A DNA stretch of 29,480 bases from a virus. The DNA lies in the IMG/VR virus record IMGVR_UViG_3300027782_000272, positions 1 through 29,480 of that record; one strand, given 5' to 3'. The stretch's first letter is position 1, and each line of letters begins with the position of its first letter. Below, piece after piece: positions 4,108-26,175 of this stretch. The notes under the pieces are model-generated. The model saw nothing but the letters and a program-made list of their open reading frames with translations. It was not told where the DNA came from and searched no databases. The position numbers and the translations under genes were made by a program.

Positions 4108-4111
<4 letters not shown>
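3959..4111 (-). CDS. Small membrane protein, candidate holin
   Basis: A 50-aa protein with two hydrophobic stretches, roughly residues 4-23 ([19 protein letters not shown]) and 29-45 (Ala/Val/Gly-rich), and a short charged tail (KAADAK). Small two-pass proteins of this type ahead of a cell-wall enzyme are common class II holins. Coupled by ATGA to the gene before (4108-4111) and after (3959-3962). Identity as the holin is inferred from size, topology and position. Confidence 0.55.
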
Positions 4112-4626
<515 letters not shown>

Positions 4627-6952: not shown

Positions 6953-7803
6953 GTGGATTTGCCTAGAACGGTAACGGTTGTGTTGGTTCCTGCCGCTGTG
7001 GATGTGATCACAAGGTCGGCGGTCAATAGCGTTCCAGTTATGCCGCTGCTGTTCCAGAATTTAGACGGCGTGGTTAGAACTTGCGTGCCGTTGCCGGCCG
7101 TAGCTGATCCGCTTGTGTTGTTGATTTCCAGCGAATAAAGCGTTGCCATGCTGATTAAAGTGACGCCTTCAAAATCCTTGCCGTCTCCGTCTGTAATGCG
7201 CACGCCGGATGATACTACGCCAGCAGTCGTGTTTGCGCTTGTTGCAGCCGCGGTGATTCCAAGTCCAGCCGGAATGGCAAGATTTGTGTTAGCTTCGTTT
7301 GCGTATTTATAGCCGTTCGCATCCGACTTGCGCGTGATGATAATGTTTGCTCCTGAGCTTGTCACGGTCCAGACGGCTGCGATTGCGGTGTTTGCCGCTA
7401 ATCCTGCTGCAAGTGCCGCTGCGACAAGCGTGGCGGTGTTGCTGGCCGTTGTAAGTGGGACAACTACGGTTAGAGGTGATCCGGTTGTGGCGGTCGAAGT
7501 AAATATCAGCGAACAGTTGCCGTTTGATGTTGCTCCAGATGCCGCGACAACCGTAGCCGTTTCAACCTGCGCCGTCCCAGCCACGTATGCAGCCGATCCG
7601 GTCGCTACGCCTGATTGCAGGTCGATCGTTGCGGTTCCACCTGACGCGACAAATTCGATTCCGATTGCGTAACCGATGTCTGCTGTTGTAAATTGGACTG
7701 CTGTTTGACTTGCGCCAATTTGAACAATTCCCGTGACAAGTGCTGACGTTGCCTGTCCTTGGCAGTTGCTCCCCGTAATCGTTTGTGCCGCTGAAATTGC
7801 CAT
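6949..7803 (-). CDS. Ala/Thr-rich virion surface protein (unknown family)
   Basis: A 284-aa protein with unusually high Ala, Thr, Ser and Gly content, few charges and many short beta segments, as in phage decoration, fibre or bacterial-Ig-like proteins. It starts at an ATG only 6 bases after a TAAAAT box (see promoter at 7810-7837), with a 39-base gap from the upstream gene. It opens the adhesin block with three coupled genes behind it. No catalytic motif is visible. Confidence 0.65.
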   Translation of the reverse strand: MAISAAQTITGSNCQGQATSALVTGIVQIGASQTAVQFTTADIGYAIGIEFVASGGTATIDLQSGVATGSAAYVAGTAQVETATVVAASGATSNGNCSLIFTSTATTGSPLTVVVPLTTASNTATLVAAALAAGLAANTAIAAVWTVTSSGANIIITRKSDANGYKYANEANTNLAIPAGLGITAAATSANTTAGVVSSGVRITDGDGKDFEGVTLISMATLYSLEINNTSGSATAGNGTQVLTTPSKFWNSSGITGTLLTADLVITSTAAGTNTTVTVLGKST

Positions 7804-7809
7804 GTCGTC

Positions 7810-7837
7810 ATTTTATGTTAGATTTTGCTTAAGTCAA
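7810..7837 (-). promoter_or_regulatory. Candidate leaderless promoter E (adhesin block)
   Basis: Minus strand: TTGACT (7832-7837), 16-base spacer, TAAAAT (7810-7815), then 6 bases to the ATG at 7803. The spacer ends in the half-site TCTAACA (7816-7822), directly next to the -10. Start of transcription would fall at or within a base or two of the ATG. It lies in a real intergenic gap. Confidence 0.6.
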
Positions 7838-7842
7838 ACTAT

Positions 7843-8442
7843 TCAATGCAAGAACTGATGCGGCCAAATTGTTGTTGATTCCGGATTGTTTGTAACAATT
7901 TTTGCGCAATTCAAAACGCGCCACCATTCCATTAAATAAGGCCGCACGTTGCTTTCGCTGCGGTCTAGGTCGTATTGCATTTCATCGCTGGTTTGCGGAA
8001 TAGCCCTGTCGCCGATAAAAGAAATTACAGATTGCCGGTTTTTGTCGCATAGCGTAGCGACTTTTCCTGTTGTGATCGCTAGCTCATTATCTAGCTTTTG
8101 ATAGAAAAGCACGTCCGGAATAGTGTCTCCAAAGTGTGAACGATAAATAACGCCAAGCTCTAACGGCTCTTGCTGTGGCAATTGCATCGCCGAAAATATC
8201 ATGTGGACGTTTTCGCGGTATCGGCTTTGGTCAATTTTTAGATCAAGTAAGAATCCATAGCGATTCCCCGCTTCTGAATTTGTCATTTTTAAGCCTGGAA
8301 TACCGTTAGGAAAAACGCTTTCAAAATAGCACGGACATTCCGGCCCATTTGCCCAGTCGATATCCGGCACGACACTTGCAGACATGCATTTTGCCAGCAT
8401 TAAAACACGCGATCCCAATCCGTTTAATAATGCCACTTTCAT
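7843..8442 (-). CDS. Possible sugar transferase (GLGSR motif), unproven
   Basis: A 199-aa protein. It begins MKVALLNGLGSRVLMLAKCM, recalling the GLGNR loop at the start of fucosyltransferase-like GT-B enzymes (NodZ/family 11 type), where the Arg contacts the sugar nucleotide. The end (PYLMEWWRVLNCAKIVTNNP) resembles the part of such enzymes that reads which residues are exposed. At 199 residues it is shorter than the usual 270-300, so it may be a reduced form or a different fold. ATG at 8442 is preferred over a TTG at 8451 that would run into the previous gene. Lies between distal tail and adhesin genes. Confidence 0.5.
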   Translation of the reverse strand: MKVALLNGLGSRVLMLAKCMSASVVPDIDWANGPECPCYFESVFPNGIPGLKMTNSEAGNRYGFLLDLKIDQSRYRENVHMIFSAMQLPQQEPLELGVIYRSHFGDTIPDVLFYQKLDNELAITTGKVATLCDKNRQSVISFIGDRAIPQTSDEMQYDLDRSESNVRPYLMEWWRVLNCAKIVTNNPESTTIWPHQFLH

Positions 8443-8443
8443 T

Positions 8444-9172
8444 TTAAGCAATGTATGTAACCGTGTCGGAATCTAGTTGACCAATAGCAGATGGTTTTGT
8501 GTCGGTTGATTCAAACCTGCCAATGTAATCTCCGTTGCGAAAAACTAAAAAGTGATACGAAACGTGCGATATTGTGCCACCTGAAATGTGATCGACATTA
8601 ACGCGCAGGTCTAGGTTGCCACCTCGATGTCTTAGGTAAATGTGACTTCCTGCAAGGTGATACTCAAGGTGCGCGGTATTTCCTCCAGTAGAAGGAGAAT
8701 AATAAGCGATTTTATACCAAAACTCTCCATTGTACCGATTAATTGGATCAGGATTAAATGATACGTAGTCGGAAGCACTAACCTCAAGTGTGCGAGCTGT
8801 TACCACGCCATCAGGACTAATGACGCATTTGATGTAAATAAATTGGCCTTCTGTAATTGATACTTCGGTTCTATCGCCGCCCAACGTGCCTATGCCGGTC
8901 GGGTAATAAACATTCATGCAATCCGTGTTATTAATACCTCCTTCAGTATCAACGACAAATCCATCTGTAATTACAAACTTGTCTTCTGCAATTAAGATCG
9001 GCCAAAAAGGTGGAATTGTATCTCCAGTCTTTGAAATCGACGGATCAATCGTGCCGCGATTTTTTAGACGCTCGAGCGCAGTTCGGATTTGATTTGCCCA
9101 TGCCGCCGTGACTGGTTGCCCAGCCCGAGTTATTGGAGGCAAAACAATCGGTATGTTAGTTGGTCGTCCCAT
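8444..9172 (-). CDS. Distal tail / fibre-related structural protein
   Basis: A 242-aa beta-rich protein. The N-terminus (ITRAGQPVTAAWANQIRTAL) is a short helix that resembles the attachment end of many small tail proteins. The centre has ITEGQFIYIKCVISPDG and a His-rich, beta-strand C-terminus. The start at 9172 overlaps the upstream stop (TAATG). It probably belongs to the tail tip or a short fibre; not recognised further. Confidence 0.6.
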   Translation of the reverse strand: MGRPTNIPIVLPPITRAGQPVTAAWANQIRTALERLKNRGTIDPSISKTGDTIPPFWPILIAEDKFVITDGFVVDTEGGINNTDCMNVYYPTGIGTLGGDRTEVSITEGQFIYIKCVISPDGVVTARTLEVSASDYVSFNPDPINRYNGEFWYKIAYYSPSTGGNTAHLEYHLAGSHIYLRHRGGNLDLRVNVDHISGGTISHVSYHFLVFRNGDYIGRFESTDTKPSAIGQLDSDTVTYIA

Positions 9173-10011
9173 TATGGTTTGGTGTATAAAGTCGCGTCCC
9201 ACTCCTGACCAGGCGGAGACATGGTCCATGTGATTGCGTATTCGCTAGTTGTTTCCGTGCCTTGCTTTGTCTGGCTGTCAGATATGCTTGATAACTTCCA
9301 GTTGCGTCCAGCAATAACCGGCGGATCTCCGTCTGGGTTCGGATCAATCCATCCGAGATAGTCCAGATAAATCTGATCGACTCCGCCTTGATTGGTTGCG
9401 CTGTGGGTCCATTCGACCTGTGATGTCTCCCACGTTTCGCGCTTGTCCCTAACAATGATCTTAAACCATTTTATAGAGTCTTCGTTAGTAATTGTTCCTA
9501 CTTCTGTGCCTAACAGATTTTTAATGTAATAGGTGTTAACTGTGGAATTTTTATCATCTCTTGCATACTTACCACTAAGGCACCCGCTAATCAAAAACTT
9601 GTCAACTTCCGCTACGTTTGCGACGTATTCCGGATGCGTCATAATAGGCGCTTCTGATAGGGTCGCATTGTATGCGTATGTCCCGCTGTCGTCGTTTTTG
9701 TCAAACTCCCAATCGGCTGAGTATCCGGTGTAATTGACTAGAATTTTAGTTAATCCGCCTGGCTCATGTTCATGGCTAACTGAATCGACCGTCAGGAAAT
9801 TCCACTTTGCCGATAGGTTCGGATAAAGCGCGGTGACAGACTGGCCTTTTTGGAATGCCGTCTGAATCGGCGTGGAATCAAAATCAAATTTGCGACAAGT
9901 AAATGTCTGCGTGCCTGACCATTTTCCCTTGTCGTCAAATCCGGCTTTGAAATCTGGGCCGGGTATCCATGTGTAAGGCTGTATTCCGTAGATGTTAGTT
10001 ATGCTGCTCAT
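9172..10011 (-). CDS. Distal tail protein of unknown family
   Basis: A 279-aa protein just downstream of the tape measure, where siphoviruses encode distal tail (Dit-like) proteins. It is beta-rich with many aromatic residues (TYTWIPGPDF-like N-terminus, WKLSSISDS, ITWTMSPPGQEWDATLY). No enzyme motif. The ATG overlaps the tape-measure stop (ATGA at 10008-10011), with a GGAGG 12 bases upstream. Function is from position. Confidence 0.6.
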   Translation of the reverse strand: MSSITNIYGIQPYTWIPGPDFKAGFDDKGKWSGTQTFTCRKFDFDSTPIQTAFQKGQSVTALYPNLSAKWNFLTVDSVSHEHEPGGLTKILVNYTGYSADWEFDKNDDSGTYAYNATLSEAPIMTHPEYVANVAEVDKFLISGCLSGKYARDDKNSTVNTYYIKNLLGTEVGTITNEDSIKWFKIIVRDKRETWETSQVEWTHSATNQGGVDQIYLDYLGWIDPNPDGDPPVIAGRNWKLSSISDSQTKQGTETTSEYAITWTMSPPGQEWDATLYTKP

Positions 10012-11243
10012 TGAAACGCTGCGCCTCCTTCCTCGCGATAAATTTGCTCCATGATTTTCAGCGTGCTTTGTTGCACGTTGAGACTGTCAATCAAAGGCTT
10101 TACGATGTCGCTGGTGAAATTTGTTTTTGGATTATTTGCGGATGTTGTCGATTTGAACATGCTCATTAAATCGTCGCCAGTTGATCTGGGCGAAACGTAT
10201 TTAAGCAACTTCGGGTCGATCGGCTCAATCAAGCCGCTTTCTTTTTGCGCTTTGCTCATCAACTGACCCAGCGCCGTTCCTTCAAAGAATTTAGTCAATC
10301 CACTTGCTATTGATTCGCCCAATGCGCTGCCAAGCTCATCAATTTTATTTGTAAGCCATGTCCATATCTCTTTGATTGACGCTTCAAATCCGATGTCGCC
10401 GTAATGACTAAAAAGCGTTTTAACGGACTCTCCAAATTTTTGCAATGATTCTCCAGCTTTGCCAATTTCGTCAAAGATTTTTTGCAATTGAACTGCTGCT
10501 GTTTCGCCTATATCGGCTCCAAAAATTCCTACCAATAGATTTCTGAACAGTTTCATTTTGACCAAATCCATCATTCCGATTACGTCGCCAAGATGCTCAA
10601 ATCCTTTTGCTTGTTCAATTGTCATCTTGCCAAACTCGCCCAAATCTTTACCGGCCTGTTCCATTGTGGCTGGAAAATTATCACGAAATGCTTGTAATAA
10701 TCTTTGTCCGCTTTTTCCAAAAAGAGTTTGTAGGATTTGTTCAATATATGGAGCTGTGACAGGATCGTTAAGCGCGTTGAAAATAGCTTCGATTTGATCA
10801 ACTGGCTTCAAGTTCATTATATCCGATACTGCAATGCCCAGCTTGTCAAATACTTCTAAGATCGGACCTTTAGTTCCGCTTACAGCTTCGTCCTTTGCAT
10901 CGGCAATTGCTTTTTGTAACGTGTAAATTGTTTTGCCAGTGTCAACGCTTTCAATCCCAGCTAATCTAAAAGCCTCTTGTAGTAATTGCAGTTTCTCAAT
11001 AGACTCTCCGGTTTTGGTTGATAAATCTACAAGGTCGCCGGTGTAATCCATAAACATGCCTGGAACTGTCGCTAATTGCTGTACAAGTGATCCTAGAATA
11101 TCCGTTCCAATTTCTCCCACTTTCCGAGCTGCGCCGATGCCGACCTCTTTGGAAAACTTGCCAAACATCCCGCCGATGTTTTTCAATCCGCCCTTTACGG
11201 CGCTCCCGTCAAATCCTACTTTAACTGTGGTATCAATCGACAT
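10008..11243 (-). CDS. Tail tape measure protein (short)
   Basis: A 411-aa protein with the usual tape-measure make-up. An N-terminal helical part (AARKVGEIGTDILGSLVQQL) is followed by VDLSTKTGESIEKLQLLQEAFRLAGI, then a central region with hydrophobic segments (LFRNLLVGIFGADIGE) and long helices rich in Gly, Lys and Phe. Residues LQLLQEAFRLAGI are typical of the conserved block of this family. At about 0.15 nm per residue this predicts a tail near 60 nm. It starts inside the end of the frameshifted chaperone extension (11233-11243). Length is short next to lambda gpH (853 aa). Confidence 0.85.
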   Translation of the reverse strand: MSIDTTVKVGFDGSAVKGGLKNIGGMFGKFSKEVGIGAARKVGEIGTDILGSLVQQLATVPGMFMDYTGDLVDLSTKTGESIEKLQLLQEAFRLAGIESVDTGKTIYTLQKAIADAKDEAVSGTKGPILEVFDKLGIAVSDIMNLKPVDQIEAIFNALNDPVTAPYIEQILQTLFGKSGQRLLQAFRDNFPATMEQAGKDLGEFGKMTIEQAKGFEHLGDVIGMMDLVKMKLFRNLLVGIFGADIGETAAVQLQKIFDEIGKAGESLQKFGESVKTLFSHYGDIGFEASIKEIWTWLTNKIDELGSALGESIASGLTKFFEGTALGQLMSKAQKESGLIEPIDPKLLKYVSPRSTGDDLMSMFKSTTSANNPKTNFTSDIVKPLIDSLNVQQSTLKIMEQIYREEGGAAFQ

Positions 11244-11837
11244 AATCCAATTCCTTCCTTGCTAACATTTCAAATTTATCTTCCAGCTCCGGGCTGATCT
11301 CCATTTGACTTATCCACCTGTAGCGATTGCCCAGCGAGATTCCGTTTGCCATCATGATTTGTAACAGTTTACTCATGTCCATTTCCCAAATTAAGTAATC
11401 CGATGCTAAGTTATGTTTAAACGCAAATAGTTCGACCGATGCTAGCCAGTGTGGGTTTGCGCTTGGCGCTCCTGCTTTCCCGTTTCCTCGCTTTCTGCTC
11501 CGCTTAGTCTAACCGATGTGATCCGTTCGACAAGCCCCTCGATGACGGCCGGCAACTGTTCTTCCCAGTCCAGCATAAAATCCATGACGGACTTGTGACG
11601 GTCGGCTCTGTTCATTTTGCGCAACTGGCCGATCAGGTCTTGATCGGCATAGCAAACTAAAGCCACCTCGTGCATGGCGTGCGCCTGTGACTGGTCGGCC
11701 TCGATGTCGGAAAATAAAACATTGCCCCAAGTCTTCAGTAGCTCATAACGACCAGCCGATAAAACAAGCTCTCTGCCGTTTAGAATTAGCGGATCTCCGG
11801 TCCATGCGTTTGCCAATATGTTGTGTCTGTTTTTCAT
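11233..11837 (-). CDS. Tail assembly chaperone, -1 frameshift fusion (G-T-like)
   Basis: If ribosomes shift back one base at the heptamer 11475-11481, the first 121 residues join an 80-residue extension that ends at TGA 11233-11235, giving about 201 aa. The extension has no good start of its own over most of its length, is free of stops and reads HWLASVELFAFKHNLASDYL then WEMDMSKLLQIMMANG, a pattern typical of the T part of tail chaperones. It bridges the otherwise empty 200 bases before the tape measure. In lambda, the ratio of G to G-T is set by this same signal. Frameshifting itself is inferred. Confidence 0.78.
11442..11837 (-). CDS. Tail assembly chaperone, short (G-like) form
   Basis: A 131-aa protein located between the tail-tube candidate and the tape measure, as lambda G is. 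It is helical with CYADQDLIGQLRKMNRADRH and a Glu-rich C-terminus. Near its 3' end, codons read ACG GGA AAG, which carries the slippery heptamer G GGA AAG. The ordinary product ends with TAG at 11442. The ATG overlaps the upstream stop (ATGA at 11834-11837). Confidence 0.75.
   Translation of the reverse strand: MKNRHNILANAWTGDPLILNGRELVLSAGRYELLKTWGNVLFSDIEADQSQAHAMHEVALVCYADQDLIGQLRKMNRADRHKSVMDFMLDWEEQLPAVIEGLVERITSVRLSGAESEETGKQERQAQTHTG
11475..11481 (-). promoter_or_regulatory. Programmed -1 frameshift slippery site G GGA AAG
   Basis: The heptamer GGGAAAG stands in the correct phase (first G is the third base of codon ACG; then GGA, AAG). It is the same heptamer that lambda uses between G and T. 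The -1 frame downstream is open for 80 codons up to 11236; the 0 frame stops after 10 codons. No clear stimulatory hairpin was searched quantitatively. Confidence 0.8.
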
Positions 11838-12406
11838 CCTTGTAGTCTGCTTAAAAATTCGTTTCTGACGGTCTTAGAGAGCTTTGTGTCAATCAATGCG
11901 GATCCACTCTCGGTTTGCATGAAAACGCTTCTCCGTGCATTGTGGAACAAATCCAAGCACGTCTTGCGGTTTGCGACAAAAGCCAAAATGTAGCTTTCCG
12001 GATTTGATGGTAGCGCGCTGACAAATGATGGAATGTCTGAGATTCCGCGCAGACCTGGCAAAGCGATTCCTTTTTTGCTTAGATAGTCCACCGCGTAATC
12101 CAGCCATTCGCCGATCGACATGGACGGCGCTGGTCGGCCGGAAATGAACTTGCAGATTTCGGCAAATGGGTGGCTGTCGATTAGGCTCCTTGCGCCCGTC
12201 CAATGATCAACGCAAGCCTGTGACGTGTGCTTTCCATCGTCGCTTGCCGGTTCCAATGCAAAGCGTGCATAAACTCTTTCGCTTGTTTCGCTGCTGATAA
12301 GATTGACCGGCGAATCCTTTTTAAGCGGGATTGCACAAGCCATAAGAGCGCTGACCAGATTGATGTCGCCCGATTGTGTTGCGTTGTTGCCGTTGTAATT
12401 TTCCAT
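11834..12406 (-). CDS. Tail region protein of unknown function
   Basis: A 190-aa mostly helical protein between the tail-tube candidate and the G-like chaperone. It contains GEWLDYAVDYLSKKG and FVANRKTCLDLFHNARRSV. There is no recognised motif. It may be a second chaperone-type or tail-length factor. Start codon lies 13 bases after the upstream stop, without a clear Shine-Dalgarno; stop overlaps the next ATG. Confidence 0.6.
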   Translation of the reverse strand: MENYNGNNATQSGDINLVSALMACAIPLKKDSPVNLISSETSERVYARFALEPASDDGKHTSQACVDHWTGARSLIDSHPFAEICKFISGRPAPSMSIGEWLDYAVDYLSKKGIALPGLRGISDIPSFVSALPSNPESYILAFVANRKTCLDLFHNARRSVFMQTESGSALIDTKLSKTVRNEFLSRLQG

Positions 12407-12419
12407 TTTCTTGTAAAGG

Positions 12420-12854
12420 TTAGGTCAATGCGACTACGGTCCCGGCCGCCACGAATGGCAGGTAAACGCCGCTCATTGATCCTTCTTCGAATCCTGTTGC
12501 GGTCGGCTTAATGCTGTTGCCAGTGATGATGATGCTTGCTCCGGTTGCCGAGGCGATGCTGTCGCCAAGTCCTTCGTTAAGTCTGGTTCGGCTGTTGCTG
12601 GTTGTGTTGGCCAAAGTGATGACGCTGCCGATGTGATCGACCAGTCCAGTCCCTTTGGTTTTGATGATGCCGTCAACGCTGATGTCTTTTTTTGGATTGT
12701 AAACGGCAAGTCCGACGTCGCAGCCGATGTGATCCGGTGCCATGACGGTTTCACTAGTTCCGTCAAAACTGACAGATCCAACAAAAAGCCCGGTTGCTGT
12801 CGCATCATCCGCTAGTCCAAATTGTGCCGTGCCGTAAACTGTTGCTAAACTCAT
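12420..12854 (-). CDS. Candidate major tail (tube) protein
   Basis: A 144-aa Gly/Ala/Thr-rich beta protein with low charge (FGLADDATATGLFVGSVSF, VDGIIKTKGTGL). It sits right after the tail-terminator-like gene and before the chaperones, where siphoviruses put the tube subunit. The size fits small tube proteins. Alternatively it is a head-tail or decoration protein. The start overlaps the upstream stop (ATGA at 12851-12854). Confidence 0.55.
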   Translation of the reverse strand: MSLATVYGTAQFGLADDATATGLFVGSVSFDGTSETVMAPDHIGCDVGLAVYNPKKDISVDGIIKTKGTGLVDHIGSVITLANTTSNSRTRLNEGLGDSIASATGASIIITGNSIKPTATGFEEGSMSGVYLPFVAAGTVVALT

Positions 12855-13309
12855 CGTAGTAGTGGTTGTTGATTTGAGAGACTGGCTGTGATCGTTAAAT
12901 CGAATGTGTCAATCCTGCGCTCGTCTCTAACAGAAATGATACCAGAACTTGTTAGATTGTCAAATACCTGCAAATTGTTAGACGCGCTCATGTAATCGAT
13001 TGACATTCTATTTGCTAAAATCTCATAAAGCGCCTGGCTCATTTCCTGACTGGTTGCGTAGGTGGTGCCGTGCGATGCCGATTCCTCCGGCACGGTGTGC
13101 AGCTCGGCGGTTAGTGATACTTCCATGACGCCGAATAGCCTGACTCCGTTTTGCTCAACCATCGTCGATCCTTGGTCGATGATTACGATCAGCGGCAAAA
13201 CCACGTCATCGGTTTCTCCGTTTAGAACTACTTGCACGCCGTCGAGAACGTCGTAGGCGCGCGCTTGGTCTTCGATCCATGTCTTAAGAGCTTGTTTTAC
13301 TTGGTTCAT
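12851..13309 (-). CDS. Tail terminator-like protein (gpU / DUF3168 type)
   Basis: A 152-aa protein. The layout (N-terminal helix with VKQALKTWIEDQA; strands VQVVLNGETDDVVLPLIVI; a strand with FGVMEVSLTAELHTV; a helix SQEMSQALYEILANRM; final strands RRIDTFDLTITASL) matches tail terminator and tail-completion proteins that cap the tube at the head side. The order, between a basic neck protein and the tube candidate, agrees. ATG overlaps the upstream stop (ATGA at 13306-13309). Confidence 0.65.
   Translation of the reverse strand: MNQVKQALKTWIEDQARAYDVLDGVQVVLNGETDDVVLPLIVIIDQGSTMVEQNGVRLFGVMEVSLTAELHTVPEESASHGTTYATSQEMSQALYEILANRMSIDYMSASNNLQVFDNLTSSGIISVRDERRIDTFDLTITASLSNQQPLLR
12936..12963 (-). 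promoter_or_regulatory. Candidate promoter C inside the tail-terminator gene
   Basis: Minus strand: TTGACA (12958-12963), 16-base spacer, TATCAT (12936-12941), the best -35/-10 pair in the structural region. It shares the 15-mer TTGACAATCTAACAA with site B (18662-18689), and is followed by TTCTGTTAGAG as in B, but about 12 bases further on. It would start transcription about 75 bases before the tail-tube candidate at 12854. Half-sites at 12926-12932, 12950-12956 and 12976-12982. Confidence 0.45.
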
Positions 13310-13989
13310 TTCTTGCTGGTTTTGAGTGCTTTCTTATACCATTTGACGGTATTTTTCAGGGCCAGATTGACCGATTCACTAATAGCAGTTTTTTTCAAAA
13401 CGTATTGATCCGCGACGTAATCGACCGTAGATGTGACTTTTGCGGACGGACTGAATCCGTTTTGCGCTGCGACGGCTTTGCCCAGGCTTGCCCATTTCTG
13501 AGCATATCCAAGATAGTTCTTGCCGATGTTGATCCGGCTGGTTCCTTTTTGTTTGCTGGCAATTTGCATCGCCGCGCCCAGCCATGATCCTTTAGCTTTG
13601 CCGACGCTGACAGATTTCATTTTGATAGCCTTGCGGAAATTTGTTAGGCTGACCGATTTGCGGCCAGATTTAAGTCGTCTTACTCTTGCGTGTCGGTCTT
13701 TGCGGTTCTCGTCGATCCAATCAACGCATTCTTGCGCTGTTTGCAGGTCCAGCTTTTTGCTTGCGCGCGGCAATATATTAACAACTTTTTGCGCGTCGGC
13801 TGTAATTGCTTGTATTTGCTTTTTTTTAGTTCCTGATTTGCCTTTTATTTCAGTGTAAAAAGCAAGCTCTCGTGCTGATTGAACTCCCCACCTAGTGACG
13901 GCCTGAGCTGAGTTCTCCCCAAACATCTTGCTGTATTTTTTCAGCGACGCTTCTAGCTTGGCGGTGTCGTTTTTCATTACCAGCTTCAT
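13306..13989 (-). CDS. Basic tail-completion / neck protein
   Basis: A 227-aa, very Lys-rich protein. It begins KLVMKNDTAKLEASLKKYSK, similar in style to HK97 gp10-like and gpZ-like head-tail joining proteins whose N-terminal helix is followed by a basic core (GRKSVSLTNFRKAIKMKSV). It lies in the gpZ position. ATG at 13989 overlaps the preceding stop (ATGA). A later Met at residue 5 is possible. Role inferred from order and composition. Confidence 0.6.
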   Translation of the reverse strand: MKLVMKNDTAKLEASLKKYSKMFGENSAQAVTRWGVQSARELAFYTEIKGKSGTKKKQIQAITADAQKVVNILPRASKKLDLQTAQECVDWIDENRKDRHARVRRLKSGRKSVSLTNFRKAIKMKSVSVGKAKGSWLGAAMQIASKQKGTSRINIGKNYLGYAQKWASLGKAVAAQNGFSPSAKVTSTVDYVADQYVLKKTAISESVNLALKNTVKWYKKALKTSKK

Positions 13990-14318
13990 GCCCGTTCTCG
14001 ATCTTTCAAGGAAATTGAAACAAACGATGCGCCGATATTTACGCTGTCAACGCGCAAGGATAGGCCGCGCGCCGTTGCTAGTTTGCCGACATAATACAAG
14101 CCGGATTGTGTATAGGACGCATCCCAGTCTGATCGGCGGACGACGCAATCAAGCGCAATGTCCGTGTCCATTCCGATCTCGGCAAACTCTCGCGTGCTTC
14201 TGGTATCGTTCATCACGGCATTGACCGCGGTGCCGCCGTTGACCGTCAAAGGTTCGTTTCCGATTACTGCAAAGGCATTCTCGGATGCGGATGACAGAAA
14301 CGATGTGAGAGCGCTCAT
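13986..14318 (-). CDS. Head-tail joining protein candidate (gpFII position)
   Basis: A 110-aa protein with an N-terminal helix (FLSSASENAFAVIG) and a beta-rich remainder ending FVSISLKDRERA. Size and place fit lambda gpFII-like attachment proteins. It starts the neck-tail operon 6 bases after a TAGAGT box (promoter D). The stop overlaps the next start. Family not confirmed. Confidence 0.55.
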   Translation of the reverse strand: MSALTSFLSSASENAFAVIGNEPLTVNGGTAVNAVMNDTRSTREFAEIGMDTDIALDCVVRRSDWDASYTQSGLYYVGKLATARGLSLRVDSVNIGASFVSISLKDRERA

Positions 14319-14320
14319 GA

Positions 14321-14896
14321 TTAAACTCTAACAGATTCGGGGGCCGCTGTCAATGCGGCGTCATGCCGGTAAGTGCAAAGCGTTTTGTCAATGTGCAGCG
14401 ATGTTTTAATTCTTGCCCGAGCTTGTCTAGACCAGATAATATCCTCGCCGTAATTAGATTCTCCAAACTGGCAGGTTTTGACTAGTTCCCGTTTCCATAC
14501 GCAAACATGCCACGGCGCTCGAAGCGTAATTCCGTTAGGCTGAAAAGGCTCATCGCAATTATTCAGACCAAAAATGACTTTGGAAAATGCGCCGTTGTAA
14601 TAGCTGTTTTGCTCAAATGTAATTACGTCTGGGCCTTGCTGAATTGCCAACAAGATTTCCGATACGTAATCCGGTTCAATGTCGTCGTCATCGTCCACAA
14701 ATGCAATGTATTCGCCTCGTGCAATGTCTAACAAAGACTGCCGTTTTGCGCCGATTGTTCGCGTGCGGTTGTCAGCAAACGACAAATGCTCAACTGCTAA
14801 ATCATTGCTTTGTTTTGCAATCTTTTCGGACAGCTTTGAGAGTTGCTCTTTTCGGCTTGTAATCGTCGGGGTCAGGATGCTGAGTTGTATGTGCAT
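14321..14896 (-). CDS. GT2-family glycosyltransferase
   Basis: A 191-aa protein with a GT-A fold start (QLSILTPTITSR), then GAKRQSLLDIARGEYIAFVD and the metal-binding run DDDDD (residues about 71-75), followed by a conserved C-terminal acceptor region with GESNYGEDIIW (the ED that acts as base in GT2 enzymes). It uses a nucleotide sugar; the acceptor is unknown. Its first 32 codons overlap the 58-aa gene in another frame; the overlap is needed because the N-terminal beta strand is essential. Lies between capsid and tail genes, so it may glycosylate virion or host surface. Confidence 0.78.
   Translation of the reverse strand: MHIQLSILTPTITSRKEQLSKLSEKIAKQSNDLAVEHLSFADNRTRTIGAKRQSLLDIARGEYIAFVDDDDDIEPDYVSEILLAIQQGPDVITFEQNSYYNGAFSKVIFGLNNCDEPFQPNGITLRAPWHVCVWKRELVKTCQFGESNYGEDIIWSRQARARIKTSLHIDKTLCTYRHDAALTAAPESVRV
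14325..14353 (-). promoter_or_regulatory. Candidate leaderless promoter D (neck-tail genes)
   Basis: Minus strand: TTGACA (14348-14353), 17-base spacer, TAGAGT (14325-14330), then 6 bases to the ATG at 14318. The 13-mer TCTGTTAGAGTTT covering the -10 is identical to that at site B. It overlaps the 3' end of the upstream glycosyltransferase gene, so part of the sequence is also coding. The -10 is a weak match (4 of 6). Confidence 0.5.
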
Positions 14897-14978
14897 ATTT
14901 TCTAAAGATTAAGTCGTAATTCGTTCTGTATTTATCGTGGTTAACCGGTCGTGGTGTGTCTCCTTTTCCTGCGCTCAT
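14802..14978 (-). CDS. Small conserved phage protein (MSxGKGDTPRPV family)
   Basis: A 58-aa protein with the family signature MSAGKGDTPRPVNHDKYRTN followed by YDLIFRK, known from many phage genomes as a hypothetical protein. Function unknown. The start at 14978 overlaps the stop of the 741-aa gene (ATGA at 14975-14978). Its 3' half overlaps the next glycosyltransferase start by 95 bases in another frame, which is long for this window. Confidence 0.75.
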   Translation of the reverse strand: MSAGKGDTPRPVNHDKYRTNYDLIFRKYAHTTQHPDPDDYKPKRATLKAVRKDCKTKQ

Positions 14979-17200
14979 TTCCTTTTCCAGTAGTTGTTGT
15001 GCGTGATAAGCTCCCATGCGTTAGCGTCGGAATGCTCCTTGACCGCTTTTGCCACTTCGCCCCAGGTCCAGTCATGGCCGGAAAAAATACCGTCTGGTTT
15101 AACTTTTGGATACCATGCCGCTAGGTCTTTAACAACCGAATTATAATCGTGCGCGGCGTCAATCCAGATGCCGTTGATTGATCCATTTTCAAATTGCAAT
15201 GCTGCCTCTGCGCTGTCTTGGCAAATGGCGGTAATCATGCCGTCCACTTTGGCCACTTTGATGTTGTCCAGAAATTGATTCAAAATGCTTCCACCATGAT
15301 CGGCGACAATTGCCACATGTGCAGGTTGGTTTTTTTCTCCTTCCCACGTATCAACGCAAATGATTTTGACATTGTTTTTTTCTAAATCCTGCAAGCGTTG
15401 CGCAAGGTAGATAATCGACTTACCAAGCCACGATCCAACTTCAACAAACGTGTCTCCGTCTTTCAATGCCCTTGCAACATTGTCGTAATGGTCGCGGTAG
15501 TCTAGCCATCCGTGGAAGTCTTCGCTAACTGCGATTCCTTGTTCAAATCGTCGCATGGTTCCTTTTCCCATAATGTAACGGTAATCTTCGTTAGACCTAG
15601 CATAGATTGCATCCATTTCACCTTTTCCAAAAATAGGATGCAAATGTTCAAAAATAGTATCTCTAGCTTCAATAACAACTCCGTCATCATATGCTTTTTT
15701 TGTAAAGTAATCGTCGCTGTAAACGCTGAAAAATTCAGGGTGGAACATAAAGCCCTGCTGCTGGTATCGCTTGCGGGTCAGAATAGCCATGCACAACAAG
15801 TTGTCCGTTCGATGCCCGTCGCTGATTGCTAGGACCTTTGACTCGCTAGTGTCACCGATTGCGTCGATGATAATCTGATCCCAATGCATCGGAGGATTCC
15901 AGTCATCGGAAAGCTGGATCAAGATTTCACCTTGCGCTTTCTCTGCCGCTGCGTTCCATGCCGCTACGCTTCCGGCGCTGCCATTTGTAACGACGTGGTT
16001 GTGGACCGCCAATAAAGCGCCGTGCATGTCGTCGCCGTCCAGTCCGAAAATGTGCTCAATTGCGTCGGGGTTTTTAGCTTTGTTAAACCATAGCCGCCGC
16101 GCTTCGACCGCTTGCTTGCATCGGCCCCGTGTGGCGTGGATCAGTGAGATTTTTTTGCCGCTGCGAATGAAATGGTTTGTTTCGATTGCGTCGGCTTGGT
16201 CGTAAAATCCATTTGCGCGCAATGCCATTCCGTGCAGTTGGTAGCCGAGATAGCCGCTGTATTTCCTGCGAACATTCCAGGCGCTCGATCCGCCGTCTTG
16301 AGCCAGCATTGCCGTTGTAATGGCCAGCGCGTCTTTGTTGCGTCCAAGTCCGATGTAGCAAAGGCAAAGCTCACCGTAGGCCTCCTTGCGCGCAGGATCG
16401 ACCGATAGCGCTTGCAGGTTCATTTGCAATCTCATGTCCACGTTGTCGGACATTTGCCCGGCTGCGATGAAAAGCTCGTATTTCTCAGCCGTGCCGATTG
16501 TTGGATCATCGCTTTTTAGCAGGTCGCAAACGACATTTGCCGCGTCGTTAATTCTGCCGACTGCTCGAAGCGACTGGAACAAATGGAATCTATGCGAAGA
16601 TGTCGGATTTTTAATGCTTTCCAAGATTCTCAAATTGCGCTCGTCGTTGCGCTCTCTTGTTCCTTCTGGCCGGTGCAAAATCACCGCGCCGTCCACGCTG
16701 GCTATTTTTGGATCTTCTGAAAATTGCAAAAACTCATGGATTGGCGATGTCCATGCGGCGTGCTTTTTGCGGATGATTCTTTCCCGTTGTACCGTAAGCT
16801 GATCTTCGGGAACGTGATAAGCAAACTGTATGCCGTCGAAATTGTTTGGCATTAAATCAATCGTTTCACGGATGCGCTTAATTGACTCAGGATCAATCAC
16901 GTCGTCAGTGTCGGCCCACATGATAAGTTCATGCGCGGCGTTGTCAAAAGACTGCTGGCGAGCTGCTGCGAAGTTGTCAACGTGCGGCCAAGATGATTTA
17001 CTTGTCTCGTTGAAATACTCAGGTGCGATTTTTGCTCCTAGTCGTTCTGCAATTTCAATCGTTCGGTCTGGCTCTTGATTGCCGATAGCTCGAACAATTA
17101 CGATCTCATCAGCCAGCGGCTTGAAGGATTTAATAAAACGGGCAATGTAGTTTTCCACATTGCCCACGATGACGCATAAACTCAGCTTTTCATTTTTCAT
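14975..17200 (-). CDS. Glycosyltransferase-TPR-glycosyltransferase-methyltransferase fusion
   Basis: A 741-aa protein with four parts. Residues 1-150: GT2 domain starting LSLCVIVGNVENYIARFIKS, with MWADTDD (DTDD at 97-100) as metal site. Residues about 190-345: helical, TPR-like repeats. Residues about 349-550: a second GT-A-like domain beginning ISLIHATRGR, with LDGDD (387-391) and LSDDW (430-434). Residues about 570-741: class I SAM methyltransferase with FVEVGSWLGKS (585-595), CVDTWEGE and IWIDAAHDY (678-686), like Methyltransf_24. It may build and methylate a glycan on virion or host. Placed directly after the capsid gene, separated by a stem-loop. No Shine-Dalgarno. Confidence 0.85.
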   Translation of the reverse strand: MKNEKLSLCVIVGNVENYIARFIKSFKPLADEIVIVRAIGNQEPDRTIEIAERLGAKIAPEYFNETSKSSWPHVDNFAAARQQSFDNAAHELIMWADTDDVIDPESIKRIRETIDLMPNNFDGIQFAYHVPEDQLTVQRERIIRKKHAAWTSPIHEFLQFSEDPKIASVDGAVILHRPEGTRERNDERNLRILESIKNPTSSHRFHLFQSLRAVGRINDAANVVCDLLKSDDPTIGTAEKYELFIAAGQMSDNVDMRLQMNLQALSVDPARKEAYGELCLCYIGLGRNKDALAITTAMLAQDGGSSAWNVRRKYSGYLGYQLHGMALRANGFYDQADAIETNHFIRSGKKISLIHATRGRCKQAVEARRLWFNKAKNPDAIEHIFGLDGDDMHGALLAVHNHVVTNGSAGSVAAWNAAAEKAQGEILIQLSDDWNPPMHWDQIIIDAIGDTSESKVLAISDGHRTDNLLCMAILTRKRYQQQGFMFHPEFFSVYSDDYFTKKAYDDGVVIEARDTIFEHLHPIFGKGEMDAIYARSNEDYRYIMGKGTMRRFEQGIAVSEDFHGWLDYRDHYDNVARALKDGDTFVEVGSWLGKSIIYLAQRLQDLEKNNVKIICVDTWEGEKNQPAHVAIVADHGGSILNQFLDNIKVAKVDGMITAICQDSAEAALQFENGSINGIWIDAAHDYNSVVKDLAAWYPKVKPDGIFSGHDWTWGEVAKAVKEHSDANAWELITHNNYWKRK

Positions 17201-17219
17201 ATTTTTTTAGTAAAGATTT

Positions 17220-17249
17220 TCGGGAGCCGCTATTTCTAACGGCTCCCGA
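17220..17249 (-). terminator. Strong stem-loop after the major capsid gene
   Basis: Perfect inverted repeat of 10-base arms (17220-17229 and 17240-17249, core CGGGAGCCG / CGGCTCCCG) with a 10-base loop. It lies 22 bases past the capsid stop and 19 bases before the next ATG. The arm is followed by only a mixed A/T stretch, not a clean T run, so it may be a partial terminator or an mRNA-stabilising end that raises capsid mRNA relative to the glycosyltransferase gene. Confidence 0.75.
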
Positions 17250-17270
17250 TGCTATGAACACAAACAGAAA

Positions 17271-18167
17271 TCAGGTTGTCGGGGTCGTGAACAATTTCAA
17301 GGCACCAGTCACCGCGGCACTGTAGCCGTAGAGCATGTGCATGTTGGCGAAGTATTGGCCGGATGCGCGGGAGTAGTGGCGAGTGTAGAGAGCAGACAAG
17401 CCGCTTTCGTCGTCAACCATTTCCTCGATGGCGATGTAGTCTTCGGCCGGCAGGTATTGACCCAACGAGCGCGAAGCAAAGGCAATCGCTTCTTGGCCGC
17501 ATGCAAATCCAACGATCGAAGCGGAGTTGCCTGGGATGATGTCGGACGAATAGACATTCATTCCGAACAGTCGGCCAAGGTCGCCGTCTTTGATTGCTTG
17601 ATTGTCGCCGCGGTTGAAATAGTTCACAAGGTTGGTGTCACCCAGCAAAGCGCCTTCAATCACCATGTTTCCGATGAAGGAATACTCACCGCGCGCTCCT
17701 GCTTGGCGAAGCTGTTTGCGAGCTTCGATCAGTTGCGTTTTGGTGTAATTGGCCGATGCGGTTGTGATGATAGCCGATCCGAAGTTAGCGGTTGTCAGCA
17801 AGCTCCACATGTCTGCAAGCACGGTTGCGCCCATCGACTTGCCGAGTTGGTAAGCCCACTTGTCCCAGCGTCCTGCGTTGCTGGATTCGGCAAGTTGTTG
17901 ATGCGTAAGGCTCACTGGTGTGATCTTGCGCTTGTCGAGAGTGACGGTGATCGCTGATAGCAATCCGCCGGTCTGCTCCATAACAGTCGCGGACTGCGTG
18001 AAAGTCGTGGTCGTGGCGGCTCCGAAAAGAGGAACTACAACGGCGCTGCCTTGTGTGTTCACGTCAGAACTGATGTCAGTTGCAAACGCGCGGATTGGGG
18101 TGAGCATTTCGACAAGTTGCTGGAAAGCGGTTTGTGCGAAAATAGTGTCGTTGAATACAGTAGCCAT
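17271..18167 (-). CDS. Major capsid protein
   Basis: A 298-aa protein. It reads as a HK97-fold coat: an N-terminal arm (TAFQQLVEMLTPIRAFATDIS), a long stretch of beta and helix with VTLDKRKITPVSLTHQQLAES, a spine helix (TKTQLIEARKQLRQAG), the P-domain loop (FIGNMVIEGALLGD) and a C-terminal region with GLSALYTRHYSRASGQYFAN. No delta domain is visible, in keeping with the separate scaffold in the gene before. The start is preceded by an A/C-rich leader (CAACTAACTAAACCAAC) with no Shine-Dalgarno; this must be a highly expressed gene. Followed by a stem-loop. Confidence 0.85.
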   Translation of the reverse strand: MATVFNDTIFAQTAFQQLVEMLTPIRAFATDISSDVNTQGSAVVVPLFGAATTTTFTQSATVMEQTGGLLSAITVTLDKRKITPVSLTHQQLAESSNAGRWDKWAYQLGKSMGATVLADMWSLLTTANFGSAIITTASANYTKTQLIEARKQLRQAGARGEYSFIGNMVIEGALLGDTNLVNYFNRGDNQAIKDGDLGRLFGMNVYSSDIIPGNSASIVGFACGQEAIAFASRSLGQYLPAEDYIAIEEMVDDESGLSALYTRHYSRASGQYFANMHMLYGYSAAVTGALKLFTTPTT

Positions 18168-18204
18168 GTTGGTTTAGTTAGTTGAGTTGTTGATTGTTGA
18201 AAAT

Positions 18205-18654
18205 TTACTTGGTCAGTTGGGCCTGAATTTCTTTCTTATGCTTTTTGACGTAAGATGTTTTTTCAGCCGGTGAAAGGTTTTTAATGTGCTCGATGTGGTC
18301 GAACGATTGTGATCCGTTTTCGATGTCGAGCGGTTTGACGATTCCAGCCGATGCGGCAAGTGCTACGGCCTGCAATGGGATTGATGTTTCAAGCTCGGTC
18401 ACCTTGGCTTGTAGTGCATCAATGTCTAACTTGGCTTGGGCGATTGCCAGATCCTTTTCAGTCACGGCGTTTTCGGCTGTGGCTAGATCAATCTTCACAA
18501 GCGCCAATTCGGAAATGGCATTTTTGGCTTCAAGCAATTCGGCTTGATGCGCGCCAAGTTCGCTTTCGTGATTGGCAATGATGTTTTCAAGAGCGCTGAT
18601 TTTTTCAATCGACTCTTGCGCGGATGGATTTGTTAGACGGTCGAGCAAGCTCAT
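18205..18654 (-). CDS. Nested scaffold protein (internal start at Met197 of the protease)
   Basis: An in-frame ATG at 18654 gives a 149-aa product containing only the coiled-coil and basic tail. In lambda, scaffold Nu3 is likewise the C-terminal part of the protease gene, made from an internal start. Here the start is exactly 7 bases downstream of a TAGAGT box and about 30 bases from a TTGACA (promoter B), so a separate leaderless mRNA could supply scaffold in excess. No Shine-Dalgarno stands ahead. The protein is predicted, not proven. Confidence 0.55.
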   Translation of the reverse strand: MSLLDRLTNPSAQESIEKISALENIIANHESELGAHQAELLEAKNAISELALVKIDLATAENAVTEKDLAIAQAKLDIDALQAKVTELETSIPLQAVALAASAGIVKPLDIENGSQSFDHIEHIKNLSPAEKTSYVKKHKKEIQAQLTK

Positions 18655-19242
18655 GCCGGAAACTCTAACAGAATTTGTTAGATTGTCAATCATCCGGTTT
18701 GCAAAGCCTAGATCAATGCATTTTTCGGCGTTCATCCATGTTTCATCCTTCATCATTTCGCGGATATCATCGACTGGCTTGCCTGTGCGCGCTGCGTAAA
18801 TTGCCGCAATTTCTGAACTAAGTTCTTCGCACATGTTTGCCGCTTTGGATAGTTCTTTAGCATTTCCAAATAGACCCATGCTGACATCGTGAATCATCAT
18901 CCGACCAGTTGGCAGCATGATAATTTCATCGCAAGCCATGCACATGACGCTTGCCATTGACGCGGCAAGACTGACCGTAGCTGTGACGTAAACGCCTTTT
19001 GCTCGGAGCTGCATGATCTTCGAATGGATCAGGTAGCCGTCAAATACGTTTCCGCCTGGTGAATGCACATTGATGTTCAACGTGTCCACGGGTGTTTCCA
19101 TGCTGTTTGTGAATCGACCTTCCGCGTCAACAATGTTGAAAGCGTAATCAATCTCGCTCATCAGTTGCCGACGTGAATATTCGTCAATCTGATCGTCTAA
19201 TGTAAGCGACGCCGCCTTGTTTTCAATCGTTAAGAATTTCAT
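18205..19242 (-). CDS. ClpP-type prohead protease fused to scaffold
   Basis: A 345-aa protein. Residues 50-185 are a ClpP/S14-like protease: NVHSPGGNVFDGYLI, then SLAASMAS with Ser95 as nucleophile, MMIHD with His118, and KDETWM with Asp166. Residues 197-290 form a long Ala/Glu/Leu coiled coil and the end is basic (TSYVKKHKKEIQAQL), as a coat-binding tail of scaffolds. This is the lambda C/Nu3 design: the protease matures the prohead and the C-terminal scaffold shapes it. The first 20 bases overlap the portal gene end. A promoter and an in-frame Met197 inside suggest that the scaffold is also made alone. Confidence 0.85.
   Translation of the reverse strand: MKFLTIENKAASLTLDDQIDEYSRRQLMSEIDYAFNIVDAEGRFTNSMETPVDTLNINVHSPGGNVFDGYLIHSKIMQLRAKGVYVTATVSLAASMASVMCMACDEIIMLPTGRMMIHDVSMGLFGNAKELSKAANMCEELSSEIAAIYAARTGKPVDDIREMMKDETWMNAEKCIDLGFANRMIDNLTNSVRVSGMSLLDRLTNPSAQESIEKISALENIIANHESELGAHQAELLEAKNAISELALVKIDLATAENAVTEKDLAIAQAKLDIDALQAKVTELETSIPLQAVALAASAGIVKPLDIENGSQSFDHIEHIKNLSPAEKTSYVKKHKKEIQAQLTK
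18662..18689 (-). promoter_or_regulatory. Candidate leaderless promoter B, inside the protease gene
   Basis: Minus strand: TTGACA (18684-18689), 16-base spacer, TAGAGT (18662-18667), then 7 bases to the ATG at 18654. A perfect palindrome with 7-base arms, TCTAACA at 18664-18670 and TGTTAGA at 18676-18682, 5 bases apart, fills the spacer. The sequence also codes for DNLTNSVRV, so coding constraint is an alternative source of the pattern, but the spacing to Met197 is the same as at sites A, D and E. Confidence 0.5.
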
Positions 19243-20731
19243 CCTCTTTGTATGTTTGGTTTGATTTGTCGTCCATCGGCTCAGGCTCTCTCATTTCGTT
19301 TGGAGTTAGCATGGCCATTTCTCTTTCCTCGATCTCGATTTCATAACCGGATTCTTTAGATACTTCTTCGGCAACTCTGGCCGCAATCACTTTGCGCATT
19401 GCGACGCTGTGCGCGCGTTTTGTGTAAAATTCTTCTTCGGTCATGCCGCGCGCCTCCGTGATCTCGGCGGTGTTGCGTAGTCCTGCGCGCCATTCGTTGA
19501 CCTCCATAGAGCTTTCTCGGCCATCGTCAACCGATAGTCTTGGCGGTGTCGAGAACGTCCAAGCAAACGGATGGTCCAGCAAAGGCACGCGGTTTGCTTC
19601 TTGAAAGCATGAATAGGCCCAGCTGAAAGCGTTCAGGGCCGCGCGTTTCAATAGCCGCTGACGTTGCGCAACAAAGCGCCGACATTTGACGATCTCGGCC
19701 CGTGAATCCGTGCCTTGTCCTGCGCCCTTCCAAATCTGATAGGACCAGACTGGAGTTAAGCTCATCCGAATCATGCGGTCTTGGAAGTTCTCCCAAATCT
19801 CGCCGGGTGTTTCGTGTTTGACTTGCTCGATCTTGTCGCCGCTGCCTGACTGCATGTAAACGATACCAGGAGCGGGATTGTTTAGGACGAATCCGCCGTC
19901 AACGCCGGTGCCGTAAATCGTTGACGGGTCGTCTAAGTCAGGGCCGCCGGTGTCGTTAAAAACAGTCAGGTGCAAACGCGATACGATTTGTTGCCGGATG
20001 CGCTCGTCCTCGGTTGCGGCAAGGCAAGCGGTGATGTCGAGCAAGGCGTGGGCAAATGCTGGGACGCCGCGAGATTGATCGCAGAAGTCCGGATCGTAGA
20101 TGTGGATTACGTTTGCCGCATCAATGTCAATGAAGGTTGTCATGTTCTCACCGGTCAGAATGCGGTAGGCTGCTGGCCGTCCGTTGTAATACTGAATCAC
20201 CCCGTCGTTGATCTTGTAGCCTTTGTATGCTCCGGTGCTGACGGTTCGGTAGTCTCCGCAATTTCCGACCCGATGCGCTGGGACGATTTGCAACTTAGGA
20301 AAGCCATCGTTTGATTTTACTTTGACCCAGAAAATGTCGCCGTCGCGATCCAGCGCGATGCTGGTCAGCTCTAGCAATTTGTGCCAATCAAAGACGCCGC
20401 CGCGTTCGGTGCAGTTCGGATACCATGCCTTGCGCATGAATGTCGCGATTGTCTTGCCGTCTGCAAAATCCGATTCGCCGACATAGGCTGGAAGGAATGC
20501 ATCACCTACTGAATAGTCTGCTTTCTGATCGACCGCGCCCTTGATGACGCCTACGTTACTGTAAAGCCTCGATGACAAGCTACGCAAGCGCACGTTGTCC
20601 AACGGACTAACCAGCTTGTCAAAGTCGGCATTTTTGATCGGATATACAACGCCTCGAGCGCGGTTGTATTCTGCCGCGTGCATGTAGCGCTGCGGAGCGT
20701 ATGGCTGGCCGTATTCGTTTAGGATAGACAT
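19223..20731 (-). CDS. Portal protein (lambda gpB / Phage_portal_2 type)
   Basis: A 502-aa protein. The N-terminus (YMHAAEYNRARG), LRSLSSRLYSNVGVIKGAVDQKADYSVG and the block IALDRDGDIFWVKVKSNDG then IVPAHRVGN are characteristic of lambda-type portals. It forms the dodecameric ring at the packaging vertex. It follows the large terminase and the gpW-position gene, with a 2-base gap from the latter. Its end overlaps the protease start by 20 bases. Length is close to lambda gpB (533). Confidence 0.9.
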   Translation of the reverse strand: MSILNEYGQPYAPQRYMHAAEYNRARGVVYPIKNADFDKLVSPLDNVRLRSLSSRLYSNVGVIKGAVDQKADYSVGDAFLPAYVGESDFADGKTIATFMRKAWYPNCTERGGVFDWHKLLELTSIALDRDGDIFWVKVKSNDGFPKLQIVPAHRVGNCGDYRTVSTGAYKGYKINDGVIQYYNGRPAAYRILTGENMTTFIDIDAANVIHIYDPDFCDQSRGVPAFAHALLDITACLAATEDERIRQQIVSRLHLTVFNDTGGPDLDDPSTIYGTGVDGGFVLNNPAPGIVYMQSGSGDKIEQVKHETPGEIWENFQDRMIRMSLTPVWSYQIWKGAGQGTDSRAEIVKCRRFVAQRQRLLKRAALNAFSWAYSCFQEANRVPLLDHPFAWTFSTPPRLSVDDGRESSMEVNEWRAGLRNTAEITEARGMTEEEFYTKRAHSVAMRKVIAARVAEEVSKESGYEIEIEEREMAMLTPNEMREPEPMDDKSNQTYKEDEILND

Positions 20732-20733
20732 AA

Positions 20734-21012
20734 TTAGAAAACGGTTGTCGAAGTTGACCGCAAAGCGCCGCCATTATCATCGAATCGTAAAATGATGGAC
20801 AGCATAGCCAAGCGCTGATCCTGTGTCATACCCTTGCCGTCCGCGACAAAGCTGTTTCCATTGCTGTTGCCTTGAATGATTTTCATTCCGGCGCTTGGAT
20901 CGCTGGCAATTAAGAGCGCCAATGATGCAGCTTCGGCTCGGATTTGTGCAAGCGCTTGCTCGTTGTTTTTTAGGATGTTGTAAATCCTGCGCGCTTGGTC
21001 ATAGACGGCCAT
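20734..21012 (-). CDS. Small protein in the gpW position
   Basis: A 92-aa protein between large terminase and portal. The N-terminal helix (YDQARRIYNILKNNEQALAQ) and a short beta part after GMKIIQGNSNGNSFVADGKG with a MTQDQRLAML helix resemble the helix-hairpin-helix layout of gpW, including the typical MTQ-x-x-R turn. gpW fills the head-tail connector. It begins 7 bases after a TAACAT box (promoter A). Identity is from position and weak resemblance. Confidence 0.55.
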   Translation of the reverse strand: MAVYDQARRIYNILKNNEQALAQIRAEAASLALLIASDPSAGMKIIQGNSNGNSFVADGKGMTQDQRLAMLSIILRFDDNGGALRSTSTTVF

Positions 21013-21019
21013 GCCGAAT

Positions 21020-21048
21020 ATGTTAGACCCACTCTAACAGATTGTCAA
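21020..21048 (-). promoter_or_regulatory. Candidate leaderless promoter A with palindromic operator
   Basis: Minus strand: TTGACA (21043-21048), 17-base spacer, TAACAT (21020-21025), then 7 bases to the ATG at 21012. A perfect palindrome, TGTTAGA (21021-21027 on plus) and TCTAACA (21033-21039), 5 bases apart, covers the spacer and the -10. This is the one member of the family lying wholly in noncoding DNA (21013-21084) with a full palindrome, so its structure is not due to codons. Confidence 0.65.
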
Positions 21049-24066: not shown

Positions 24067-24323
24067 GGCCCCGTTTCGTTCGTAGCTAGCTGCCACGGTT
24101 CATATCCGTTTGCCTGTGCCATTAGGTCCGCGTCCAACGGTATCGCGCCATGCCCGAGCAGGTGCATCACCGATACGGTCTGACCCGTCTCCTGCGTGCC
24201 GATCAGCGCGCCCTTGACGCTATAAACCGGTTCGGACTCTTTGCGCTGTATCACCTCAAACACTTGGAAGCGCATTGAGCTAATAAACGGTTGTTTATGA
24301 TAGACCTTTAAAAAAGTTCTCAT
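24063..24323 (-). CDS. Hypothetical 86-aa protein
   Basis: An 86-aa protein with alternating beta segments (MRFQVFEVIQ, PVYSVKGALIG, TVSVMHLLGHGAIPL) and a C-terminal DADLMAQANGYEPW. No motif recognised. Coupled on both sides by ATGA overlaps (24320-24323; 24063-24066). Confidence 0.6.
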   Translation of the reverse strand: MRTFLKVYHKQPFISSMRFQVFEVIQRKESEPVYSVKGALIGTQETGQTVSVMHLLGHGAIPLDADLMAQANGYEPWQLATNETGP

Positions 24324-26166: not shown

Positions 26167-26175
26167 GCGTGTATC

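Follow-up and report, generated by a model that had tools for sequence, protein, structure and literature searches.

Predicted leaderless promoters in the late operon of a phage that most likely infects Verrucomicrobiota

We analyzed a virus record of 29,480 bases (IMG/VR IMGVR_UViG_3300027782_000272, positions 1 to 29,480; hereafter the window), in which the late operon lies on the minus strand, and examined a set of promoter-like elements that end a few bases before start codons. Four late sites, designated A, B, D and E, and probably a fifth, designated G, are very probably σ70-type promoters distributed along the late operon and used by the RNA polymerase of a Verrucomicrobiota host. Their mRNAs would be leaderless because the promoters place the transcription start at or near the start codon. 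Site B is positioned inside the coding sequence of the head maturation protease, where a separate scaffold protein is predicted to begin.

All of these sites are on the minus strand and have the composition expected of σ70-type promoters, a TTGACA-like −35 box and a TANNNT −10 box 16–18 nucleotides (nt) apart. At site A (21010..21048), TTGACA (21048-21043) is followed after 17 nt by TAACAT (21025-21020) and, 7 nt further on, by ATG 21012, the start of a 92-amino-acid gene (20734-21012) between the genes for the large terminase subunit (TerL) and the portal. Site B (18652..18689) consists of TTGACA (18689-18684), 16 nt, TAGAGT (18667-18662), 7 nt and ATG 18654. Site D (14316..14353) consists of TTGACA (14353-14348), 17 nt, TAGAGT (14330-14325), 6 nt and ATG 14318, which starts a 110-amino-acid gene (13986-14318), and site E (7801..7837), in the tail region, of TTGACT (7837-7832), 16 nt, TAAAAT (7815-7810), 6 nt and ATG 7803, which starts a 284-amino-acid gene (6949-7803). 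The boxes, spacers and ATG distances of these four sites are as described in the original prediction, made from the sequence of the window, and so are those of a fifth site of different make-up with the same geometry, G (26164..26200), in which TTTACA (26200-26195) is followed by 16 nt, TAAGAT (26178-26173), 6 nt and ATG 26166, the start of an open reading frame (ORF) of only 54 amino acids. A sixth match (24321..24357; TTGACG, 16 nt, TACTAT, 6 nt, ATG 24323) precedes an ORF of 86 amino acids; this is a weaker candidate, identified by its geometry alone in a region outside the aligned relatives. In all six, the first T of the TANNNT box is about 12 bp before the start codon and the box ends 6–7 nt before it.

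The geometry was defined as a −35 box with at most one mismatch, 16–17 nt, TANNNT, 6–7 nt and an ATG opening an ORF of at least 50 amino acids, and the window has six matches to it, whereas 300 dinucleotide shuffles averaged 0.04 and none exceeded 1. General σ70-like matches are unremarkable, with 29 observed and 20.7 in shuffles, a slight surplus of the kind expected if these sites were chance matches to the promoter consensus in coding DNA. That explanation is extremely improbable, being at odds with the great excess of the specific geometry over shuffles and contradicted by conservation at the DNA level, both within coding sequence and across proteins of 28–47% identity (below). The unusual feature is the fixed distance to the start codon, not promoter matches in general: pooled over five related genomes, the distance from promoter to ATG is 6 or 7 nt in 24 cases, and any other distance occurs at most 4 times. 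Shine-Dalgarno (SD) sequences are scarce in this phage, as had been noted originally, with a match of at least 4 bases at 3–14 nt found at 4 of the 47 listed starts and none at starts A, B, D, E and G.

These observations lead to a model in which the host σ70 holoenzyme would bind the TTGACA and TANNNT boxes and begin transcription 7–8 bases past the latter, placing the first transcribed base on the A of the ATG or no more than about one base away, and in which ribosomes would initiate on the 5′-terminal AUG independently of an SD sequence, as for part of the genes of the host phylum. The predicted leaderless products are the 92-amino-acid protein, the scaffold, the 110-amino-acid protein encoded after the head genes and the 284-amino-acid protein of the tail region. 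A further site not included in the original prediction, C (12936..12963; TTGACA, 16 nt, TATCAT), lies within gene 12851-13309 and has no adjacent ATG, the next start being ATG 12854, 81 nt downstream; C would be a leadered member of the promoter set. The existence of C is what would be expected if all of the sites were ordinary internal promoters of the late operon, with mRNAs that are not translated from their first AUG and with the close ATG a by-product of compact packing, and some starts, such as 1558 and 12854, do have A/C-rich leaders. This alternative is quite improbable given the pooled distances at 6–7 nt with few elsewhere, and given that divergence of the flanking sequences leaves the distance intact, as does, at G, a change of downstream gene.

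Site G provides a case of the latter kind. It is 87% identical over 67 bp to positions 30229-30295 of the related genome G001, and the match stops about 10 nt past the ATG, leading into unrelated ORFs; a further G-like copy is found before a third ORF in G001. Movement of promoter and start codon together before different genes, as these alignments suggest, fits leaderless use well. Separately, a promoter-like TTTACT-17-TAGATT is present at about 1558-1640 (minus strand), with an A/C-rich leader and ATG 1558, and its upstream sequence is related to a predicted leaderless site at 21143 of G001.

A scan of IMG/VR with the protease yielded 29 loci, including about 15 close relatives with 72–99% protease identity. 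The original prediction named loss of the boxes at this distance in related phages as the observation that would count against it; the four sites are kept in close relatives, and a distant one again has A, B and D. The −35 box, spacer, −10 box and ATG distance are retained in every close relative aligned over A, B, D or E. Site A is kept in 15 of 15 relatives covering it, although the adjoining upstream TerL is only 27–28% identical in most, and D is kept, next to a shifting upstream stop codon, in 8 of the 8 relatives listed. At E, four relatives (G001, G002, G004 and L009) have a perfect TTGACA at 17 nt and an identical TAAAAT GACGAC ATG, and a fifth (G003) has TTGACT at 16 nt. This conservation supports the leaderless interpretation, which we infer from the geometry.

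Selection on the DNA itself is seen where the boxes overlap coding sequence. In codons 185–197 of the protease ORF, which contain B, the synonymous difference among 13 sequences is 0.117, compared with 0.327 elsewhere, the lowest of 309 codon windows, and a change of residue from I to L within B uses a codon that still preserves TTGAC. At C, the synonymous difference is 0.033, compared with 0.293 elsewhere, the lowest of 124 codon windows in that gene; the effect at D is weaker, with 7 of 173 codon windows as low. These tests use overlapping codon windows of one gene each among related sequences, and their outcomes are ranks rather than probabilities. The boxes at B and C are thus constrained independently of coding.

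The protease ORF (18205-19242, minus strand; PF00574, phrog_94) encodes 345 amino acids, with a C-terminal scaffold part. B had been described as preceding a gene: its boxes and ATG 18654 stand, while a separate gene does not, the ATG being in-frame codon 197 of the protease ORF. Initiation there would yield a nested product of 149 amino acids (18205..18654, minus strand; MSLLDRL...), the predicted scaffold. An AlphaFold model of the protease (mean predicted local distance difference test score (pLDDT) 65) has a ClpP/SppA-like N-terminal part, a low-confidence stretch at residues 167–197 and one long helix at 208–298, and the start at codon 197 falls at the domain boundary, near 190–207. In this model, which is of moderate confidence, the internal in-frame codon in the 3′ portion of the gene coincides with the transition from the ClpP-like to the helical part, the point at which a separate scaffold would be expected to start. 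B would then split one gene into two products, a full-length protease-scaffold fusion translated from mRNA initiated upstream, and a free scaffold part with a leaderless mRNA of its own. The residues around NLTNSVRV are themselves conserved in close relatives, as they would be if B were a protein linker only, conserved for its amino acids and giving no separate scaffold product; this is unlikely in view of the depressed synonymous sites at B and of the distant relative described next, in which the DNA block of B is much better preserved than the protein.

That relative, contig G298, was found by an IMG/VR pattern search and encodes proteins 28–47% identical to those of the window. G298 has TTGACA-17-TAGTTT-6-ATG at the place orthologous to A and TTGCAA-16-TAGGAT-6-ATG at that orthologous to D, and a C-like TTGACA-16-TATCTT inside the orthologous gene, again with no ATG. 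At B, it has TTGACA with the hexamer TAGTTC, and the distance from the start of the −35 box to the internal ATG is 35 nt, exactly as in the window. The 40-bp block of B is 80% identical between the two, whereas its flanks are 32% and 42% identical and the whole protein 31%. The A blocks have an ungapped identity of 0.30, which is uninformative since their ATG distances differ by one base. Other contigs from the same search have unrelated or very short ORFs at the start, and only G298 encodes a recognisable relative; two contigs checked from an IMG/VR pattern scan for D-like sites gave no matches. In G298 (loci L122 and L123), TCTAAC is strongly strand-biased, with 40 copies on the late-gene strand and 1 on the other.

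The gene order of the late operon is small and large terminase subunits, the 92-amino-acid gene, portal, ClpP-type head protease and major head protein, followed by glycosyltransferase genes, other small genes and those for the tape measure and tail. The sole annotated relative of the portal in 50,697 phage records is that of Verrucomicrobia phage P8625, at about 27% identity. A search of one genome per species (84,980 species) found six portal relatives in bacterial genomes, namely those of IMCC26134, Opitutae and Opitutales assemblies, an Akkermansia assembly and a Verrucomicrobium; because all six fall in Verrucomicrobiota, the host is most likely a member of this phylum. Across 141 genomes from the class to which IMCC26134 belongs, TTGACA-16/17-TANNNT occurs 621 times at 6–7 nt from an ATG, 447 times at 9–10 nt and 227 times at 12–13 nt, and the reversed pattern 36–40 times. 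The concentration of matches near the ATG in these genome sequences, led by a dozen genomes mostly of 2–3 Mb, supports leaderless or nearly leaderless genes in the class. In Akkermansia muciniphila, about 10% of transcription start sites mapped by Cappable-seq are at annotated gene starts, compared with 0.4% in Escherichia coli (PMC4782308), and Akkermansia and IMCC26134 have both been described as poor in SD sequences (PMC10783764).

Several observations weigh against host-driven leaderless transcription from these sites. B and D match the −10 consensus poorly, as the original prediction acknowledged; in G298 the hexamers of both are weaker, that of B not conforming to TANNNT, and the −35 box of D there is TTGCAA. 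Transcripts from upstream may also run through these ATGs. On the host side, the excess at 6–7 nt over 9–10 nt in the class of IMCC26134 is modest, and in IMCC26134 itself, used as a proxy host, a 400-kb sample with 218 starts has no TANNNT peak at 6–7 nt and exact matches to the architecture are rare, so that this strain is not supported as a direct promoter model. Among the relatives, a group of loci (L020-L024) with a major head protein 86% identical and a protease 42% identical to those of the window keeps an internal Met (MASILDRF) with no promoter before it, and no site of this geometry is found in P8625 or in the Verrucomicrobiota genome loci examined (L043, L044, L046 and L047). The promoter arrangement is thus characteristic of a single lineage of these phages rather than shared by all relatives.

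A candidate operator is found inside promoter B at 18665..18681 (minus strand; CTAACAAATTCTGTTAG, CTAAC-N7-GTTAG). Only two such dyads are present in the window, this one and GTTAG-N7-CTAAC in A, and that of B is also present in 5 of 5 close relatives examined; G298 has only three, at A, B and D. The window has 12 copies of the heptamer TGTTAGA/TCTAACA, compared with about 3.6 expected, and most copies are at A, B, C, D and E. This distribution suggests that CTAAC-N7/8-GTTAG is a candidate operator for a shared regulator. It is plausible, if somewhat short of probable, that the conserved blocks are mainly operators, the TCTAAC/GTTAG dyad between the −35 and −10 boxes being bound by a phage regulator that switches the promoters; selection for this regulator would then preserve the sequence as much as selection for RNA polymerase. 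The confinement of the dyads to promoters and the heptamer excess there argue for such a role, as does the preservation of the dyad at B of G298 though the −10 hexamer is degraded. On the other side, half-sites partly coincide with the −10 box (TCTAACAT, GTTAGAGT), inflating the association; their orientation and spacing vary, the dyad at A being inverted in the lineage of the window and having an N11 spacer in that of G001; and CTAAC is common and strand-biased in G298 (64 versus 10). An operator function would add to the host-promoter explanation more than compete with it. The heptamer as a stand-alone repeat was not adopted as the primary interpretation, since the −35 box and ATG distance are conserved alongside it. 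A search for a regulator among the early proteins gave weak matches and a 91-amino-acid protein (26210-26485) with a DnaA C-terminal helix-turn-helix (PF08299, E 1.4e-12) and no ATPase domain; none was assigned as the regulator. More tentatively, the leaderless promoters may together form a late regulon controlled by a single regulator that the phage encodes and that binds CTAAC-N7/8-GTTAG between the −35 and −10 boxes; the ratio of scaffold to protease would then be set by a leaderless promoter in the protease gene and not by a ribosome-binding site inside it.

Several further features of the window were noted. The segment 21012-22863, which adjoins promoter A, is a mosaic junction, its TerL being 27–28% identical to those of G001-type relatives and the portal about 85% identical. 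The region 14321-17200, between the gene for the major head protein and the structural genes that follow, contains a 741-amino-acid ORF that combines two glycosyltransferase-like parts with a methyltransferase-like C-terminus; another glycosyltransferase gene comes after it. A GC-rich array of about 39-nt units (GCCTTGCC...) at 24983-25253 (repeat family D2) overlaps short ORFs, and an array of 12-nt units such as TGGTTCTGGCTC at 4075-4338 (repeat family D1) lies mostly inside ORF 4108-4626. Two assignments found no support: 12420-12854 as the major tail protein, for which the AlphaFold model (mean pLDDT 30) was useless and no PDB relative was found by sequence, and the 92-amino-acid protein as gpW-like, for which no credible PDB match was found, leaving it a conjecture based on gene order.

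The sites are candidates, exactly placed and open to test, for leaderless late transcription in phages of a phylum whose transcription has been little explored by experiment, and B would be an example of a nested structural gene with its own promoter inside coding sequence. Gene finders that rely on SD sequences may misplace or miss such starts, and 18654 would escape ordinary annotation. The arrangement suggests that phages adopt the initiation habits of SD-scarce hosts.

In phage lambda, the scaffold Nu3 is nested in-frame in the 3′ part of protease gene C, and its start is used on a polycistronic mRNA. The nested start at B differs from that of lambda in having its own conserved promoter. 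The lambda proteins have the roles of a protease-scaffold pair (PMC3224144). Within the Shigella gene virF, an internal promoter gives rise to a leaderless mRNA from which a shorter protein in the same frame, VirF21, is translated (PMC5101355), an experimentally demonstrated case that resembles the proposal for B, in a bacterial regulator gene unrelated by descent. The closest cultured relative found, P8625 (NC_029047, PMC4642752), shares the gene order terminase, portal, protease, head protein.

Leaderless bacterial genes with a TANNNT box next to the ORF have been described (Zheng et al. 2011, PMC3160421; in Deinococcus-Thermus, PMC12340547), and the sites in the window share with them a box ending 6–7 nt before the ATG and the lack of an SD sequence, but differ in having a strong TTGACA −35 box and in preceding phage late genes; the texts of the two papers do not mention Verrucomicrobia. 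The A. muciniphila start sites (PMC4782308) were mapped experimentally in the same phylum as the likely host, in bacterial genes and with no phage studied. The suggestion that leaderless late genes would be unusual for a phage needs qualification: middle and late mRNAs of the Thermus phage phiYS40 are mostly leaderless, according to the available part of a review (PMC3594737), which does not describe a nested scaffold start or a dyad element for that phage. phiYS40 thus offers a precedent for leaderless late phage mRNAs, and the likely host phylum is known to have leaderless genes of its own.

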